From NCBI GenBank assembly GCA_900142905.1, contig FSRV01000002.1:1302001-1366000 (forward strand): a stretch of DNA of 64,000 nucleotides, written 5' to 3'. The translations under genes and the position numbers were made by a program. Every line of letters begins with the position of its first letter. Position 1 is the first letter of the stretch. This DNA comes from Burkholderia sp. GAS332. Its GTDB lineage: Bacteria; Pseudomonadota; Gammaproteobacteria; Burkholderiales; Burkholderiaceae. Positions 30,062-50,467 of the stretch are shown here, one piece after another. The notes under the pieces are model-generated. The model did no database searches and had not been told where the DNA came from. It saw nothing but the letters and a program-made list of their open reading frames with translations.

Positions 30062-30135
30062 ACGCTAGTTAGACGGTGTTTGAGCGCAAAATAGCCTGCC
30101 AGTAAGGTAAAAACAGAGCGCATACCGCGCCAAAA

Positions 30136-30273
30136 GCATGGGATCGGAGTAAGTGTTGAAGCGCTAACTCAGATCGACTGCGTTGCATGGGACGCGAGTA
30201 AGCGCTGAAGCGCTAACTCTCGTCGACTGCGTTGCATGGGACGAGAGTAAGCGCTGAAGCGCTAACTCTCGTC
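30136..30273 (+). repeat. Three 49-bp hairpin repeats in the leader of the acyl-CoA synthetase gene
   Basis: Units begin with GCATGGGA at 30136, 30185 and 30234, exactly 49 bp apart. Each contains a hairpin with arms 30142-30150/30067 offset to 30167-30175, then 30191-30199/30216-30224, and 30240-30248/30265-30273, enclosing AGCGCT-type inner arms. The third unit ends 16 bp before the ATG, next to CACAGGAG. The first unit is the most diverged and its stem is imperfect. Confidence 0.9.
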
Positions 30274-30289
30274 GACACAGGAGACAACG

Positions 30290-31981
30290 ATGACTGTAGC
30301 GAAGGGCTTTCTCGAAGCGCGCGACCTGTTACTGCGCCATCGCACCGACTACGACCGCGCCTACCGCGAATTCGCGTGGCCGACGCCAGGCCAGTTCAAC
30401 TGGGCGCTCGACTACTTCGATGTGATCGCGCGTGACAATCACAACCCGGCGCTGTGGATTGTCGATGATCCGGCAAGCGACGGATTGCGTCTCTCCTACG
30501 CGCAGATGTCGGAGCGCTCGTCGCGCATGGCGAACTTCCTGCGCGGCGTTGGCGTGGGTCGCGGCGACCGCGTGCTGTTGATGCTGCCGAATCGCGTCGA
30601 ACTGTGGGACGTGATGCTCGCGGCCATGAAGCTCGGCGCAATCGTCCTGCCGGCCACCACCCAGCTTTCCGCCGACGACGTGCGCGACCGTGTGCAGATC
30701 GGCGGCGCGCAGTTCGTGGTGGTCGACAGCGCGGAACTGGCCAAGTTCGACGCACTCGACGTACCGCTCACCCGCATCTCGGTCGGAGCGCCGCGCGACG
30801 GATGGATCGACCTTGCCGCGGCCTATGATGCATCGCCGCAATTCACCCCCGAAGGCGTCACGCACGCCAGCGATCCGCTGCTGCTGTACTTCACGTCGGG
30901 CACCACGTCCAAACCGAAGCTGGTCGAGCATACGCATCAGAGTTACCCGATCGGCCACCTGTCGACCATGTACTGGATCGGCCTGCAACCCAACGACATC
31001 CATTGGAACATCAGCTCGCCGGGCTGGGCCAAGCACGCGTGGAGCTGCTTCTACGCACCGTGGAATGCGCAAGCCTGCGTGTTTGTTTTCAACTTTCCGC
31101 GCTTCGTGCCGAAAGACACGCTCGACGTGCTGGTGCGTTTCAATGTCACGACGCTGTGTGCGCCGCCAACCGTCTGGCGCATGCTGGTGCAGGAGCATCT
31201 CACCGACTATCCGGTGAAGCTGCGCGAGATCGTCGGCGCGGGCGAGCCGTTGAATCCGGAGATCATCGAACGCGTCAAGCATGCGTGGGGGATCACGATT
31301 CGCGACGGTTTCGGCCAGACCGAAACGACCTGCCAGATCGGCAACCCGCCGGGGCAACCGGTGGTGCCGGGTTCGATGGGCCGTCCGCTGCCGGGCTACA
31401 AGATCGAACTCCTCGATGCGGACGATCAACCCGCTACCGAAGGCGAAATCTCGCTGCCCCTGGCTGAACGTCCGCTTGGATTGATGACCGGCTACGCGAA
31501 CAACGTCAATGCCACCGCGCAAGCCATGCGCAACGGTTTCTACCACACCTCCGACGTCGCGTTGCGTCGTGATGACGGCTACTACGTCTACGTCGGCCGC
31601 GCCGATGACGTCTTCAAATCGTCCGACTACCGGCTAAGCCCGTTCGAACTCGAAAGCGTGCTGATCGAACACGAAGCGATCGGCGAAGCGGCCGTGGTGC
31701 CGAGTGCCGATGCGCTGCGTTTGTCGGTGCCCAAAGCGTTCGTCACCGTGCGTCAGGGCTATGAAGCCGGTCCCGAACTCGCACGCGCGGTCTTCGCGTT
31801 CTCGCGCGAAAAGCTCGCGCCGTACAAGCGGATTCGCCGCTTGCAATTCAGCGAGCTGCCGAAAACCATCTCCGGCAAGATCCGCCGCGTCGAATTGCGG
31901 CGTCGCGAAATGGAGCGCGAGGCCGAGCCCGCGCGTCTGCCGGACGAATATTGGGAAGAGGATTTCCCGGATCTGCGTTGA
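30290..31981 (+). CDS. AMP-forming acyl-CoA synthetase (medium/short-chain type)
   Basis: 563 residues. It activates a carboxylic acid to its CoA thioester through an acyl-adenylate. Motifs are the P-loop-like LYFTSGTTSKPKLVEHTHQS, FGQTETTCQIG, YHTSDVALRRDDGYYVYVGR and the C-terminal KTISGKIRRVELRRRE with the acetylatable-type Lys. In this operon isobutyrate or another branched acid is the probable substrate, feeding isobutyryl-CoA to the dehydrogenase. The start is fixed by CACAGGAG upstream; three hairpin repeats precede it. Apparent N-terminal extensions beginning MHGTR are translation of the repeat. Confidence 0.9.
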   Translation: MTVAKGFLEARDLLLRHRTDYDRAYREFAWPTPGQFNWALDYFDVIARDNHNPALWIVDDPASDGLRLSYAQMSERSSRMANFLRGVGVGRGDRVLLMLPNRVELWDVMLAAMKLGAIVLPATTQLSADDVRDRVQIGGAQFVVVDSAELAKFDALDVPLTRISVGAPRDGWIDLAAAYDASPQFTPEGVTHASDPLLLYFTSGTTSKPKLVEHTHQSYPIGHLSTMYWIGLQPNDIHWNISSPGWAKHAWSCFYAPWNAQACVFVFNFPRFVPKDTLDVLVRFNVTTLCAPPTVWRMLVQEHLTDYPVKLREIVGAGEPLNPEIIERVKHAWGITIRDGFGQTETTCQIGNPPGQPVVPGSMGRPLPGYKIELLDADDQPATEGEISLPLAERPLGLMTGYANNVNATAQAMRNGFYHTSDVALRRDDGYYVYVGRADDVFKSSDYRLSPFELESVLIEHEAIGEAAVVPSADALRLSVPKAFVTVRQGYEAGPELARAVFAFSREKLAPYKRIRRLQFSELPKTISGKIRRVELRRREMEREAEPARLPDEYWEEDFPDLR

Positions 31982-32000
31982 TCGTTTTTGTTTCCAGTCA

Positions 32001-32030
32001 CTGTACGGCCGCTAAGCGGCCACTGCACAG
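32001..32030 (+). promoter_or_regulatory. Leader hairpin immediately before the mmsA ribosome binding site
   Basis: GGCCGCT A AGCGGCC (32007-32021) with outer CTGT (32001-32004) / ACAG (32027-32030) pairing. The sequence leads directly into CACAGGAG and the ATG at 32041. Same position as the repeats before the acyl-CoA synthetase and mmsB genes, but a different sequence. Confidence 0.6.
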
Positions 32031-32040
32031 GAGTCCCAGC

Positions 32041-33558
32041 ATGAGCGCAATTGCTTCGAACCAGGCCGCCACCGTCAAACTGCTGATCAACGGCGAGTTC
32101 GTCGAATCCAAAACCACCGAATGGCGCGACATCGTCAACCCGGCCACGCAAGAGGTGCTCGCACGCGTGCCGTTCGCCACCGCTGATGAAGTGAACGAGG
32201 CGATCCGCTCGGCACACACCGCGTTCAAGACCTGGAAGGACACGCCGATCGGCGCGCGTATGCGCATCATGCTGAAGTTCCAGGCGCTGATTCGCGAGCA
32301 TTCGCCGCGCATCGCCAAGACCTTGAGCGCCGAGCAGGGCAAGACGATTCCCGATGCCGAAGGCGATATTTTCCGCGGGCTCGAAGTGGTCGAGCACGCC
32401 TGCTCGATCGGCACCTTGCAGCAGGGTGAGTTCGCCGAGAACGTCGCAGGCGGTGTGGATACCTACACGTTGCGTCAGCCGATTGGCGTATGCGCCGGTA
32501 TCACGCCGTTCAATTTCCCCGCGATGATCCCGTTGTGGATGTTCCCGATGGCGATCGTCTGCGGCAATACGTTTGTGCTGAAGCCTTCCGAGCAGGATCC
32601 GCTGTCGACGATGCAACTGGTCGAGCTGGCGCTCGAAGCCGGTGTGCCGAAGGGCGTGCTGAATGTCGTCCACGGCGGCAAGGATGTGGTCGATGCGCTC
32701 TGCACGCACGATCTGGTGAAGGCGATTTCGTTCGTCGGCTCGACGGCGGTCGGCACGCATGTTTATCGCCTCGGCAGCGAACACGGCAAGCGCGTGCAAT
32801 CGATGATGGGCGCGAAGAATCACGCGGTTGTGCTGCCCGATGCGAATCGCGAGCAGACCTTGAATGCGCTGGCCGGTGCAGGCTTCGGCGCAGCAGGACA
32901 GCGTTGCATGGCGACCTCCGTGGTCGTGCTGGTCGGCGCGGCGCAGCAATGGCTGCCCGATCTGGTCGCGAAGGCGAAGACGCTGAAGGTCAACGCGGGT
33001 AACGAGCCGAACACGGACGTCGGCCCGGTGGTCTCACGCGCCGCGAAGCAACGCATTCTCGGCCTGATCGAAACGGGCGTGAAAGAGGGCGCAACCCTGG
33101 CGCTCGACGGCCGCGACGTGAAAGTGCCGGGCTACGAGCAAGGTAACTTCATCGGCCCGACGGTCTTCACCGATGTCACTACCGAGATGGAAATCTATCG
33201 TCAGGAAATTTTCGGCCCGGTGCTGGTGGTGCTGAGCGTCGCCACGCTCGATGACGCAATCGCGCTCGTCAACAGCAATCCGTTTGGCAACGGCGTGGGT
33301 CTCTTTACGCAAAGCGGCGCGGCGGCACGCAAATTCCAGAGCGAGATCGATATCGGTCAGGTCGGCATCAACATTCCGATTCCCGTGCCGGTGCCGTTCT
33401 TCAGCTTTACCGGCTCGCGCGGCTCGAAACTCGGCGACCTCGGGCCTTATGGCAAGCAGGTTGTGCAGTTCTACACGCAGACCAAGACGGTTACCGCCCG
33501 CTGGTTCGACGACGACACGGTCAACGACGGCGTCAATACGACGATCAGCCTGCGCTGA
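32041..33558 (+). CDS. mmsA: Methylmalonate-semialdehyde dehydrogenase (CoA-acylating)
   Basis: 505 residues from MSAIASNQAATVKLLINGEF; a 30-codon upstream extension in frame is non-coding. The enzyme converts methylmalonate semialdehyde with CoA and NAD+ to propionyl-CoA and CO2. Aldehyde dehydrogenase features include GVCAGITPFNFPAMIPLWMF, AISFVGSTAVGTHVY and the nucleophile Cys in GAAGQRCMATSVVV. PIPVPVPFFSFTGSRGSKLG is characteristic of MmsA. It sits between the acyl-CoA synthetase and mmsB in the valine/isobutyrate operon, with AGGAG at the start. Confidence 0.95.
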   Translation: MSAIASNQAATVKLLINGEFVESKTTEWRDIVNPATQEVLARVPFATADEVNEAIRSAHTAFKTWKDTPIGARMRIMLKFQALIREHSPRIAKTLSAEQGKTIPDAEGDIFRGLEVVEHACSIGTLQQGEFAENVAGGVDTYTLRQPIGVCAGITPFNFPAMIPLWMFPMAIVCGNTFVLKPSEQDPLSTMQLVELALEAGVPKGVLNVVHGGKDVVDALCTHDLVKAISFVGSTAVGTHVYRLGSEHGKRVQSMMGAKNHAVVLPDANREQTLNALAGAGFGAAGQRCMATSVVVLVGAAQQWLPDLVAKAKTLKVNAGNEPNTDVGPVVSRAAKQRILGLIETGVKEGATLALDGRDVKVPGYEQGNFIGPTVFTDVTTEMEIYRQEIFGPVLVVLSVATLDDAIALVNSNPFGNGVGLFTQSGAAARKFQSEIDIGQVGINIPIPVPVPFFSFTGSRGSKLGDLGPYGKQVVQFYTQTKTVTARWFDDDTVNDGVNTTISLR

Positions 33559-33578
33559 GACCTCAGGTCTATTGCTTT

Positions 33579-33665
33579 GCATGGGATGGGAGTAAGCGCT
33601 AAAGCGCTAACTCCCATCGAGCTTTGCATGGGATGGGAGTAAGCGCTAAAGCGCTAACTCCCATC
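33579..33665 (+). repeat. Two 47-bp hairpin repeats in the mmsB leader
   Basis: Units begin GCATGGGA at 33579 and 33626. Each holds a perfect outer stem GATGGGAGT / ACTCCCATC (33585-33593 with 33610-33618; 33632-33640 with 33657-33665) around inner AGCGCT arms with an AA loop. The second unit runs directly into CGACACAGGAG and the ATG at 33684. Related to the three units at 30136-30273, with different but complementary stem bases. Confidence 0.92.
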
Positions 33666-33683
33666 GACACAGGAGAGAACATC

Positions 33684-34586
33684 ATGAAAATAGGCTTTAT
33701 CGGACTCGGCAACATGGGCGCGCCGATGGCGCTCAATCTGCTGAAGGCGGGCCACACGGTCAACGTATTCGACCTCAACGCGCAAGCGGTGCAGACACTC
33801 GTCGATGCGGGGGCTAAAGCCGCAAGTTCGCCGAAAGCCGCGGTGACCGATGTCGAATGTGTGGTGACGATGCTGCCCGCTGCCACTCACGTGCGCAGCG
33901 TGCTGATAGCGGATGACGGTGTTTTCGCCGGCATCCCGGACGGCGTGACGATCATCGATTCGAGCACCATCGACCCGGCGAGCGTGAAGGCGTTTGCCGA
34001 ACTGGCCGAGCAGCGCGGCAACACTTTCGTCGACGCGCCCGTCTCGGGCGGCACCGGCGGCGCGGCGGCGGGCACGCTAACCTTCATGGTCGGCGGCAGC
34101 GCGGATGCGTATGAGCAGGTCAAGCCGGTGTTGTCGGCGATGGGCAAGAACATCGTGCATTGTGGCGACACCGGCACCGGTCAGGTCGCGAAGATCTGCA
34201 ATAACCTCGTGCTCGGCATCACCATGGCGGGCGTGGCCGAGGCGATGTCGCTGGGCGAGGCGCTCGGCATCGACGCGAAAGTCCTGGGCGGCATCATCAA
34301 TACCTCGACGGGCCGCTGCTGGAGTTCCGATACGTATAACCCGATGCCCGGCGTGATCGAAACCGCGCCGTCCACGCGCGGTTATACCGGTGGCTTCGGC
34401 ACCGATCTGATGCTCAAGGACCTGGGCCTTGCCACCGACGCCGCGAAATTCGCGCGTCAACCGGTGTATCTCGGCGCTTTGGCTCAACAGCTGTACCAGA
34501 CGATGAGCACGAAAGGCGCGGGACGCCTCGACTTTTCCGCGGTGATCAAGCTCTATCGCCAAGAGGGCAAGGACGGAGGCGCGTGA
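33684..34586 (+). CDS. mmsB: 3-hydroxyisobutyrate dehydrogenase
   Basis: 300 residues from MKIGFIGLGNMGAPMALNLL; AGGAG lies at the usual distance, and the 20-codon extension upstream is translation of a repeat. It oxidises 3-hydroxyisobutyrate to methylmalonate semialdehyde with NAD+. The Rossmann motif GLGNMG, the substrate loop DAPVSGGTGGAAAGTLTFMV and the catalytic Lys in GQVAKICNNLVLG are all present, as is the C-terminal MLKDLGLA. It overlaps the next gene by 4 bp, so the last three genes are translationally coupled. Confidence 0.95.
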   Translation: MKIGFIGLGNMGAPMALNLLKAGHTVNVFDLNAQAVQTLVDAGAKAASSPKAAVTDVECVVTMLPAATHVRSVLIADDGVFAGIPDGVTIIDSSTIDPASVKAFAELAEQRGNTFVDAPVSGGTGGAAAGTLTFMVGGSADAYEQVKPVLSAMGKNIVHCGDTGTGQVAKICNNLVLGITMAGVAEAMSLGEALGIDAKVLGGIINTSTGRCWSSDTYNPMPGVIETAPSTRGYTGGFGTDLMLKDLGLATDAAKFARQPVYLGALAQQLYQTMSTKGAGRLDFSAVIKLYRQEGKDGGA

Positions 34587-35431: not shown

Positions 35432-36576
35432 GCGCCTTGCAGAGCGTCGCGCTCGATACGAGCGTAGAGGCGGAGCGCGAGATTCTGTTTCGCGTCGTCA
35501 ACCGTGTGGCGATCATCACGCTGAACCGGCCGGCCGCGCTCAATGCGCTGTCGCACGCGATGGTGCGGGAACTGACCGTGCTGGTCGAACATTGCCGTAC
35601 CGATGATGGGATCGTTGCCCTTGTGCTCAAAGGCGCGGGCGCCAAGGGTTTTTGCGCCGGCGGCGATGTGCGCGAGGTGCAGCGGCTCGCGAAGAATGGC
35701 GATAGCCGGTGGCTGGCGTTTTTCGTCGATGAATACCGGCTCGACTATGCGCTGCACACGTTTCCGAAGCCCGTGGTCGCCTTGCTCGACGGGATCTCGA
35801 TGGGCGGCGGCATGGGGCTCGGGCAGGCGGCGCGGCTGCGGATCGTCACTGAGCGGAGCAAGATCGCGATGCCGGAGACGCGCATTGGGTTCCTGCCCGA
35901 TGTCGGTGCGACGCGTTTTCTGAGCGTGATGCCGGCGGAGGTTGAACTGTATGTTGGGCTCACTGGGGTGACGTTATCCGGCGCGGATGCGTTGCGCTTG
36001 CAACTGGCGGATCTGTGTGTGCCGGCTGAGTGGCTTGGGACTTTTGAAGAGCGCTTGCAGCGCATGTCGCATACGGGGGATTTGATGGCGGCGTTGCGTG
36101 GAGTGTTCGAGCCGCCGTGCAATATCATTCCGCATGCTGCGTTGGGGCCTTTTACTCAGTTGATCCTTAGGCATTTTGATCGGCGCTCGAGTATCGAGCG
36201 GATTGTCGCGACGTTGCGTCATGATCTGGCGCGCGAGCCCGCGCGGGAGGTGAGGCAGTGGCTGCAGGCTGCTTATGATGCGATGGTTGGGCATTCGCCT
36301 ACGATGCTTTATGTCACCCGGGAGGCTTTGCTGCGCGGGCGGCAGATGACTTTGGCGGAGTGTTTTCGGATGGAGTTGGGGATCGTCAAGCGGGTGATCG
36401 AGGAAGGCGATTTCTGCGAAGGCGTTAGGGCGCAGTTGATCGATAAGGATCGGAAGTGCAGGTGGGCGCCTGCGACGCTTGCCGAGGTGCGGCCGGAGCG
36501 AGTTCGGCATTTTTTGGCTTCGCCTTGGAAGAGGGAGGGGCATCCGTTGGTTGCTTTGGGTGCTGAAGCGCTATGA
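35428..36576 (+). CDS. 3-hydroxyisobutyryl-CoA hydrolase
   Basis: 382 residues, the usual length for HIBCH, longer than simple hydratases. It releases free 3-hydroxyisobutyrate for MmsB. Motifs are NRPAALNALSHAMVRELTVL, GFCAGGDVREVQRLA, ISMGGGMGLGQAARLRIVTE and MPETRIGFLPDVGATRFLS, the last specific to HIBCH-type members. The C-terminal KDRKCRWAPATLAEV is also typical. It overlaps the preceding gene by 4 bp and ends the operon. Codon use in its second half drifts to more T- and A-ending codons than upstream genes. Confidence 0.92.
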   Translation: MSALQSVALDTSVEAEREILFRVVNRVAIITLNRPAALNALSHAMVRELTVLVEHCRTDDGIVALVLKGAGAKGFCAGGDVREVQRLAKNGDSRWLAFFVDEYRLDYALHTFPKPVVALLDGISMGGGMGLGQAARLRIVTERSKIAMPETRIGFLPDVGATRFLSVMPAEVELYVGLTGVTLSGADALRLQLADLCVPAEWLGTFEERLQRMSHTGDLMAALRGVFEPPCNIIPHAALGPFTQLILRHFDRRSSIERIVATLRHDLAREPAREVRQWLQAAYDAMVGHSPTMLYVTREALLRGRQMTLAECFRMELGIVKRVIEEGDFCEGVRAQLIDKDRKCRWAPATLAEVRPERVRHFLASPWKREGHPLVALGAEAL

Positions 36577-36876
36577 GGTAGTCGACGTTTGTTGTTCTGT
36601 ATTCCTACGGTGTTGGCCTTTCCTTGTTTTCTTATCGGTGTATTAGCGTCGCCCCTGTGCGGGGCGGCACCTACTTTTCTTTGCCGCCGCAAAGAAAAGT
36701 AGGCAAAAGAAAGCGGCTCGAAGCCCCTGCTAAGCGGGTCCCTCGCGCAGTTACGGTAGTGGTGCATCTGGAATCTGTGCTCTCGCACATTCGGCGTCAG
36801 TGACAAGGCAGTCATACTTCCGGCGGCGCTGCGCGCGCCGACGCGGTGGTTCTTGATGTGCGTCGGCGTGCTCTCG
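36577..36876. other. Intergenic region with a Paraburkholderia-type repeat
   Basis: This 300-bp stretch holds the inverted-repeat element at 36645-36720. I see no gene in the remainder, including the AT-poor part from 36720 to the MFS gene. Confidence 0.55.
36645..36720. repeat. Intergenic inverted-repeat element, REP-like, common in Paraburkholderia
   Basis: A short GC hairpin (GCCCC / GGGGC near 36651-36665) is followed by a perfect 14-bp inverted repeat CTACTTTTCTTTGC (36671-36684), 4-nt loop, GCAAAGAAAAGTAG (36689-36702), then GGCAAAAGAAAGCGGCTCG. I recall this sequence as a frequent intergenic repeat in the genus; that is memory, not a search. It may act as a bidirectional terminator between the convergent valine operon and the MFS gene. 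Confidence 0.7.
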
Positions 36877-50359: not shown

Positions 50360-50383
50360 AAAAACCCGCCTTCTGGGCGGGTT
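50360..50383 (-). terminator. Intrinsic terminator, minus strand
   Basis: 8-bp stem AACCCGCC / GGCGGGTT with a 5-nt loop, followed on the minus strand by a run of T. It sits directly before the P-loop gene, and about 80 nt after a promoter-like sequence, see the ncRNA candidate at 50363. Confidence 0.8.
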
Positions 50384-50467
50384 GTGATTGCGTATTGTCA
50401 ACTCAATAGCTATCCCGCCGAGACTGTCGCGGCGTTAATAATCGAGTTGATGTGGGATCGGTTCATG
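50363..50467 (-). ncRNA. Candidate ~105-nt transcript (sRNA or attenuated leader)
   Basis: On the minus strand, TTGCCT (50497-50502) and TATGCT (50474-50479) are separated by 17 bp, a good sigma-70 arrangement. The predicted transcript from ~50467 ends at the intrinsic terminator 50360-50383. It could be an sRNA, the leader of the P-loop gene or a short mRNA. A 45-codon frame, 50410-50547 with a GTG start, begins upstream of the predicted RNA start, so it is less compatible with this promoter. No known family is recognised. Confidence 0.4.

Follow-up and report, generated by a model that had tools for sequence, protein, structure and literature searches.

Several classes of short dispersed repeats resemble the element described here. 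Members of the CGTC-tagged superfamily of repetitive extragenic palindromes (REP), to which dRS3 of Neisseria belongs, carry a tag CGTC, or TGTC or CCTC instead, 5′ of the palindrome and an unpaired 3′ tail that is mostly CCA, lack an associated transposase gene, and form a hairpin with a stem of 8-9 bp, AT pairs at positions 1 and 2 and a loop of 4-5 nt (PMC3733652). The REP of the TnpA-REP (RAYT) system have a hairpin with a conserved internal mismatch, and the enzymes cut at a CT dinucleotide (PMC8266576). In the passages of the REP surveys that treat gene context, the palindromes lie mostly behind genes. Here, we describe a family of 46-49-bp palindromic repeats that lie mostly in front of ribosome-binding sites, including those of atpG, atpC and metabolic genes. 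It was detected in a 64,000-nt stretch of the genome of Burkholderia sp. GAS332 (contig FSRV01000002.1, positions 1,302,001 to 1,366,000; “the window”), in which units precede an acyl-CoA synthetase gene and mmsB. Judged from sequence comparisons, it is somewhat probable (about 0.55) that these repeats, which mostly occupy the 5′ edges of Shine-Dalgarno (SD) sequences, spread as a REP-like single-stranded-DNA element, and that the mRNA leader would thereby gain an insulating hairpin.

Read in antisense, a unit consists of TGTC, a hairpin (9 bp, a T.T mismatch, 5 bp and a 4-nt loop) and CCATGCAA(AGC). Among 71 of 77 copies in the source genome, i.e. with the rRNA copies left out, 54 have the tag TGTC and one has CGTC, while the tail CCA is present in 68. 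The family thus shares with the CGTC-tagged REP the short dispersed palindrome, a listed variant of the tag and the CCA tail. No dedicated transposase gene was found, as judged from six Y1_Tnp loci scanned for repeats. In contrast to these REP, the stem has 9 bp and 5 bp around a mismatch and starts with a G-C pair, and self-nesting is a feature of the present family. Its units precede the SD sequence of the next gene by a nearly constant distance, whereas uni-REPs are found close to where the upstream gene ends (PMC3733652). Because tag and tail match but stem, first pairs and gene position differ, we call the family a new variant of REP-like palindromic repeats outside the CGTC-tagged class. 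With the TnpA-REP system it has in common the conserved internal mismatch and junctions at C|T, the dinucleotide cut by these enzymes (PMC8266576), which is a parallel and no proof. It differs in that GTAG occurs in none of the 71 antisense tags, that no copy was found beside the six Y1_Tnp loci scanned, and that a conserved RAYT-like protein (see below) seems, by eye, to be devoid of the catalytic motif. Burkholderia is absent from the main texts of PMC3733652 and of the RepRanger paper (PMC12306157), and no description of the family was found in the literature, as judged from listings and passages.

The TAACTGA repeats of Beggiatoaceae are similar in being located in sense orientation just upstream of the start codons of many unrelated genes; unlike the present units, they are heptamer direct repeats, are not described as hairpins in the passages concerned, and mostly replace the SD sequence (PMC4679880). 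A literature search with short pieces of the family sequence yielded one relevant paper among the matches listed (PMC5968390). Its Table 4 contains repeats of P. terrae (GCGTAAGCGCTAAAGCGCTAACGCC) and P. oxyphila (GTCGACCAGAGTTAGCGCTTCAGC) that carry the family core and are filed as “orphan CRISPRs”, without nearby cas genes. The present units, by contrast, are palindromic and lie at SD edges, and where they form simple tandems only 2-11 nt separate the model matches, unlike CRISPR repeats with their unique spacers of regular, repeat-like length. We infer that the CRISPR label of the P. terrae and P. oxyphila repeats is wrong, and the family may explain some of the repeats filed in this way.

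Copies of the family and their position before ribosome-binding sites

A covariance model was built from an alignment of 51 of 54 listed copies; three (L034, L042 and L052) were dropped for indels, and seven rRNA loci had been left out earlier. In the source genome (10.4 Mb), at least 77 sense matches were found with a scan that scored 150 of 5386 first-look candidates, so that weaker copies may be missed. A pattern search yielded 87 strand matches, often both strands of one place, compared with one match for a reversed control. Within the genus, 116 of 117 genomes searched, including the source genome, contain matches, ranging from 1 to at least 67 per genome. At the family level, the repeats were found in 57 of 150 genomes and in 8 of 25 genera. 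One genome (G149) contains more than 20 copies sharing the top score of 75.9 bits, which suggests that these copies spread recently. Twelve of the 44 model columns are invariant, and an A.A mismatch is nearly so.

The 77 matches were grouped into 59 clusters, and six clusters in rRNA spacers were set aside. The remaining clusters were counted when an SD-like core and a start codon with an open reading frame (ORF) of at least 100 codons follow right after the repeat. The automatic pass was 40 of 59, and L037, L092 and L095 were added after an ORF check (143, 304 and 326 codons, respectively); at L013, the true start is also located 3′ of the repeat (ORF of 399 codons). Thus, 43 of the 53 non-rRNA clusters lie directly 5′ of an SD-like sequence, a start codon and an ORF, compared with 2.1% of random window positions. 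An earlier note on this DNA had proposed a preference for ribosome-binding sites, and these values bear it out strongly. The SD core contains GGAG in 38 of the 43 cases. In other genomes, 24 of 33 clusters (31 best-matching loci) passed a test with 60 codons, and two of the misses are cut by contig ends.

For comparison, we estimated how often the presumed target sequence occurs away from translation starts. The window contains 13 SD-positioned and 10 intergenic non-SD instances of AGGAG, a small sample with approximate gene calls. In contrast, an AGGAG that follows a repeat is an SD site in 33 cases and another site in one (Fisher p = 2e-4). For GGAG, the values are 38 and 1 beside the repeat versus 32 and 58 in the window (p = 4e-12). 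Given this skew, the target sequence was disfavoured as the sole cause of the placement; the comparison argues that retention also shapes where copies are found. Beyond the window, about 41 sites lie before an SD sequence and ORF, and the downstream proteins scanned for ten of them comprise ATP synthase gamma and epsilon, a thiolase, an FAD oxidoreductase, a carboxyl transferase, an aldehyde dehydrogenase, an acyl-CoA dehydrogenase, an enoyl-CoA hydratase, a sugar/MFS transporter and a BNR-type protein.

The rRNA spacers contain relatives in both orientations. One is a sense copy just upstream of the 23S gene (L011:1492-1536), and two are antisense copies just past the 23S 3′ end (L046:1951-1994 and L054:2019-2056). 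Four further loci (L043, L047, L049 and L051) have sequences like L046 and share its flanks. The rRNA context was checked against Rfam for L011 and L046. GCAACTATC, or a close variant of it, stands before some outermost copies (L033, L040, L050, L092 and L095); a loose pattern found it in 8 of 71 copies, and it may represent a longer 5′ end of the element.

Occupied and empty sites, nesting and candidate enzymes

Orthologous sites were compared by eye, and filled and empty sites with clean junctions, as for a transposable element, were found at atpG, atpC, the synthetase gene, mmsB and a thiolase gene. At atpG, the empty site reads GATC|AAGGAGCAAGCA-ATG, and in the filled site a unit ending GGCCGAC stands between GATC and AAGGAGCAAGCA-ATG, so that the insertion edge is GATC|AAGGAG. 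At atpC, the empty site CAACC|AGGAGTCGACATAA (L234) recurs with an additional unit ending GTCGAC (L238), and the edge is CAACC|AGGAG. At the synthetase gene, the empty site is CATC|AGGAGACGAC (L110, L111 and L114), while filled units end GTCGAC|AGGAGACGAC (L105 and L108); the edge is CATC|AGGAG, and AGGAG is retained in the empty orthologues. Empty mmsB sites (e.g. L105-L110) likewise retain GGAG, and the mmsB and thiolase sites agree. The SD sequence is thus present with and without the unit, implying that it predates the unit, which is added at the 5′ edge of the SD sequence. Apart from 1-2 ambiguous bases, no duplication of the target was seen at the compared sites.

Occupancy varies between species. 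Of the 37 mmsB sites read besides the window, two are occupied, one by 3 units and one by 4, compared to 2 in the window; the covariance model was run on 42 of 80 MmsB loci. The synthetase start was found in 16 of 37 loci read, and 7 of these 16 are occupied. One of the synthetase arrays (L113) has 8 units, and the site of Burkholderia paludis (L180) contains a diverged version with other but paired outer arms. The thiolase site is occupied in 7 of 28 loci read by eye, including the source genome, the start having been missed in 2 of 30. The pattern missed the atpC start in 9 of 30 loci, and for a dadA-like gene 13 of 30 loci were read, two of them without a start.

Units also occur within units. 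Twelve right-hand junctions of the form GTCGACAGCT|NAAGC, from 11 source-genome loci, show one unit inside the loop of another. At L089, the nesting is two deep, and the outer arms of nested units mostly still pair (by eye). In antisense, a C|T step is present at nested junctions, at some tandem junctions (AAAGC|TGTC) and at the SD target (CTCC|T); other tandem linkers differ.

Transposases with a Y1_Tnp domain were searched as candidate mobilising enzymes. Repeat counts, which are capped near 54, are higher in the 14 genus genomes with a Y1_Tnp match stronger than E 1e-20 (median 49 versus 28, p = 0.025, uncorrected for genome size). However, 32 of the other 103 genomes still hold at least 40 copies, and a RAYT was rejected as the mobiliser. 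Opposite two of the stronger hits, L218 and L219, TnpB-like ORFs were seen by eye, so that these hits look like IS200/IS605 transposases. No repeat match above chance was found at the six Y1_Tnp loci scanned, and in the source genome there is no repeat near a Y1_Tnp hit of 28.7 bits or near one hit below the cut-off.

A RAYT-like protein is encoded at L183:1459-2163 (C1:440169-440873). It scores 27-29 bits with PF01797 and 57.7 bits with the NCBIfam model REP_Tyr_transpos, the cut-off of which is 80. A 62% paralogue is encoded in the source genome at C2:3172997-3173689, and a search of solved structures with the protein gave no hit. Relatives, mostly one match each, were found in 134 of 150 family genomes and 18 of 25 genera. 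This distribution is far wider than that of the repeat (134 versus 57 of 150 genomes), and it was rejected as a match. The protein may be a catalytically dead, domesticated transposase.

Pairing of the arms and competing explanations

The earlier note had reported that bases differ on both arms while pairing is kept. This covariation is strong. In 48 distinct copies, standard pairs occupy 94.8% of pair cells (shuffled 89.1), 7 of 14 pairs are changed on both sides, and 41 double-change cells compare with a shuffled mean of 9.5. Slid structures reduce pairing to 21-32%. The stem has 9 + 5 bp around the A.A mismatch, and its first pair is G-C in all 48 copies. The note had named copies that lack compensating changes, or that show no preference for ribosome-binding sites, as grounds against its idea, and by this measure the idea survives; the mmsB array of P. 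domus counts against the paired changes, as two of its three units have GACGGG/CCCATC, a one-sided change leaving an unpaired C/A.

The conclusion that the note had drawn, i.e. selection for the folded form, is not supported for the RNA. Structural RNAs generally show an excess of G.U, and G.U would be expected to be favoured if the sense RNA were under selection. Among non-Watson-Crick cells of the source genome, A.C was found 28 times and G.U 14 times (two-sided binomial p 0.04), with 13 of the 28 A.C cells at one pair, 19-32. Copies from other loci gave 46 versus 33 (p 0.18), and orthologous-site loci alone gave 33 versus 22. The counts for other loci are based on the 117 rows, of 150, that have a length of exactly 44 letters (74 of them distinct), and they understate variation because many rows represent the top-scoring copy of their genome. 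A.C, which is G.T on the other strand, is at least as common as G.U, and covariation is therefore no proof of selection on the sense RNA. As the units are mobile-looking copies that are present or absent and nested, a need for a palindrome in DNA or a template-driven correction of the arms explains the covariation equally well. Pairing appears to be kept for a reason that is blind to wobble in the sense strand, i.e. a DNA hairpin, correction of one arm by the other, or selection on RNA that is too weak to remove single mismatches from so strong a stem.

The atpA-atpG junction bears on a possible role in the mRNA. There, the 60 bases before the atpG SD sequence are predicted to fold in all of 30 genomes, which are related to one another (−18.5 to −33.6 kcal/mol, z −1.0 to −6.9), and pairing stops 1-6 nt short of the SD sequence. 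The mobile family is present in 18 of the 30 according to the model, L233 contains a degenerate copy (by eye), and an older hairpin, unrelated to the family, occupies the site in the remaining 11. In four genomes (L240, L243, L245 and L246), this older hairpin has given way to the mobile type, as judged by eye. Pairing near the SD sequence in all genomes, achieved with two unrelated hairpin types, points to a use of a hairpin at this spot.

The proposed REP-like family would work as follows. A putative HUH-type enzyme that recognises the hairpin would join the unit at antisense C|T steps, namely within CTCC|T, the complement of the SD sequence, and at AAAGC|T, where nested units and some tandem ones are joined. 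Copies at SD edges would be kept since promoter, SD sequence and start codon stay intact. The hairpin just 5′ of the SD sequence might insulate it from upstream RNA, decouple initiation from the upstream cistron or protect the downstream mRNA; a role in the mRNA is plausible. A more far-reaching version, which we put forward as tentative, is a transposable hairpin that targets the ribosome-binding site itself. It would read the complement of AGGAG in single-stranded DNA, insert at the 5′ edge of the SD sequence in one orientation, nest in its own loops, and supply translational insulators across Paraburkholderia, Burkholderia and relatives, with the atpG hairpins swapped. If SD recognition guided its movement, the family would represent a type of element that alters translation starts and leaves promoters and coding sequences untouched. 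As related species offer both filled and empty sites, movement and effects on expression are directly testable.

Several results weigh against the REP-like reading. No mobilising enzyme was found: in the source genome, a single Y1_Tnp hit exceeds the Pfam cut-off, and it is weak (28.7 bits), and none of the 32 copy-rich genus genomes mentioned above has a Y1_Tnp hit better than E 1e-20. Relatives of the RAYT-like protein also occur in genera without the repeat, and what we take to be its HUH motif reads SVQ, with V at the presumed position of the usual Tyr (by eye). Ten of the 53 clusters are devoid of an SD sequence plus long ORF (L028, L030, L031, L032, L035, L053, L086, L094 and two at L088). 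The two at L088 represent both strands of one complex locus, and L086 has GGAG and ATG but just 27 codons. Some of these clusters look antisense to the neighbouring gene, according to approximate gene calls. Five of the 43 SD sites have a weak core lacking GGAG, the spacing from GTCGAC to the SD sequence varies by a few nt, and the linkers between tandem units vary. Concerning the fold, 9 of the 30 atpG folds have z values weaker than −2, a comparable fold threshold is reached by 8 of the 25 window genes that were scored, two of them being the repeat sites, and the lack of a preference for G.U over A.C argues against strong selection at the RNA level.

The latter result fits a purely selfish palindromic DNA element, which would insert with a sequence preference, survive at SD edges as a harmless safe haven and leave a useless hairpin in the mRNA. 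Presence and absence at orthologous sites (mmsB 2/37, thiolase 7/28), arrays of up to 8 units, nesting, and copies in rRNA spacers and non-SD places are all compatible with this possibility. We nevertheless regard it as doubtful. An intergenic AGGAG off the SD position should be equally safe and is nearly as common (13 versus 10), yet only one AGGAG-adjacent copy lies off a long ORF, and at atpG all 30 genomes have a predicted fold that ends near the SD sequence, among them genomes without the mobile type and genomes in which it took the place of the older hairpin.

Two further explanations do without a primary role of transposition. A cis-regulatory RNA family would control the translation or decay of individual cistrons through its sense hairpin, by way of protein binding or RNase cleavage, and would make the spread of copies secondary. 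The sense orientation at SD edges (43/53), the strong folds and the covariation agree with it, as do many sites behind a co-directional gene (approximate calls), including atpG, atpC, thiolase and mmsB. The missing excess of G.U, the lack of an Rfam family at the gathering score over the units, the gain and loss of sites between species, and the lack of an evident single regulon in the ten downstream proteins scanned, of about 41 sites, render it unlikely. Purely mutational covariation, in which template switching corrects arm against arm and selection by neither RNA nor transposase is needed, would account for pairing kept on both strands alike and for identical arm pairs within an array (units 3 and 4 of P. 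lacunae mmsB; alternating units of L113). As an overall explanation it is very improbable, because the sequence is conserved beyond the needs of pairing (12 invariant columns of 44 and the nearly invariant A.A mismatch), and SD placement, nesting and dispersal are left unexplained.

The five units of the window and their surroundings

The coordinates, core search and folds confirmed three 49-bp units before the synthetase gene and two 47-bp units before mmsB, as described in the earlier note (Table 1). The inner AGCGCT arms that it had assigned to all units are absent from unit 1 before the synthetase gene, the left inner arm of which reads AGTGTT; together with the weakest fold, this agrees with the view that this unit is degenerate. 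All five units are predicted hairpins, with z values of −3.1 to −6.5, and adjacent units can also pair mutually in the fold prediction. With up to 3 mismatches, the core AGTAAGCGCTNAAGCGCTAACT is found in the window at the five units only (9 strand matches; 0 of 100 shuffles). GCATGGGA is present in all five units and at two other sites, i.e. 7 instances versus 2.96 expected, and 2 of 100 shuffles reach 7. No match at the Rfam 15 gathering score was found over the units; below gathering, there were matches to microRNA families with E values of 0.028 or worse.

Table 1. Repeat units and adjacent features in the window. Unit coordinates are model positions 1-44 of each repeat.
Feature	Position	Strand	Details
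Unit 1 before acyl-CoA synthetase gene	30134..30177	+	C2:1332134-1332177; degenerate hairpin; 56.2 bits; −18.8 kcal/mol
Unit 2 before acyl-CoA synthetase gene	30183..30226	+	Hairpin GACGCGAGT..ACTCTCGTC; 67.9 bits; −24.0 kcal/mol
Unit 3 before acyl-CoA synthetase gene	30232..30275	+	Hairpin GACGAGAGT..ACTCTCGTC; stem 30240-30273; 72.3 bits; −24.6 kcal/mol
SD sequence AGGAG of synthetase gene	30279..30283	+	Directly 3′ of unit 3
AMP-binding acyl-CoA synthetase gene	30290..31981	+	ATG 30290; PF00501, PF13193; 3′ of three units
Unit 1 before mmsB	33577..33620	+	Hairpin GATGGGAGT..ACTCCCATC; 71.9 bits; −25.3 kcal/mol
Unit 2 before mmsB	33624..33667	+	44 model positions identical to those of unit 1; 71.9 bits; −25.9 kcal/mol
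SD sequence AGGAG of mmsB	33671..33675	+	ATG at 33684
mmsB, 3-hydroxyisobutyrate dehydrogenase	33684..34586	+	PF03446, PF14833; 3′ of two units

According to domain scans, the operon encodes an acyl-CoA dehydrogenase, the AMP-binding synthetase, an aldehyde dehydrogenase (mmsA), MmsB and two proteins of the enoyl-CoA hydratase family, a predicted content that fits a valine-type operon. The closest named relative of MmsB is that of Paraburkholderia domus (96%), which suggests Paraburkholderia as the genus of the source. At mmsA, which lies between the two repeat sites, a short palindrome unrelated to the repeats, GGCCGCTAAGCGGCC, was seen by eye directly ahead of CACAGGAG (window 32000-32041). 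In a reading of the unit as a promoter (TTGCAT, 17 bp, TAAAGC), the −10 element is weak, as seen by eye, and this reading was set aside. Within units (e.g. window 30236-30250), a micro-ORF of four codons without an SD sequence was seen by eye (ATGGGANNNGAGTAA, ATG-GGA-NNN-GAG-TAA). Elsewhere in the window, two Rfam families match above gathering, i.e. Bp1_684 at 36565-36680 (− strand, 49.3 bits) and P9 at 50361-50445 (− strand, 46.8 bits).

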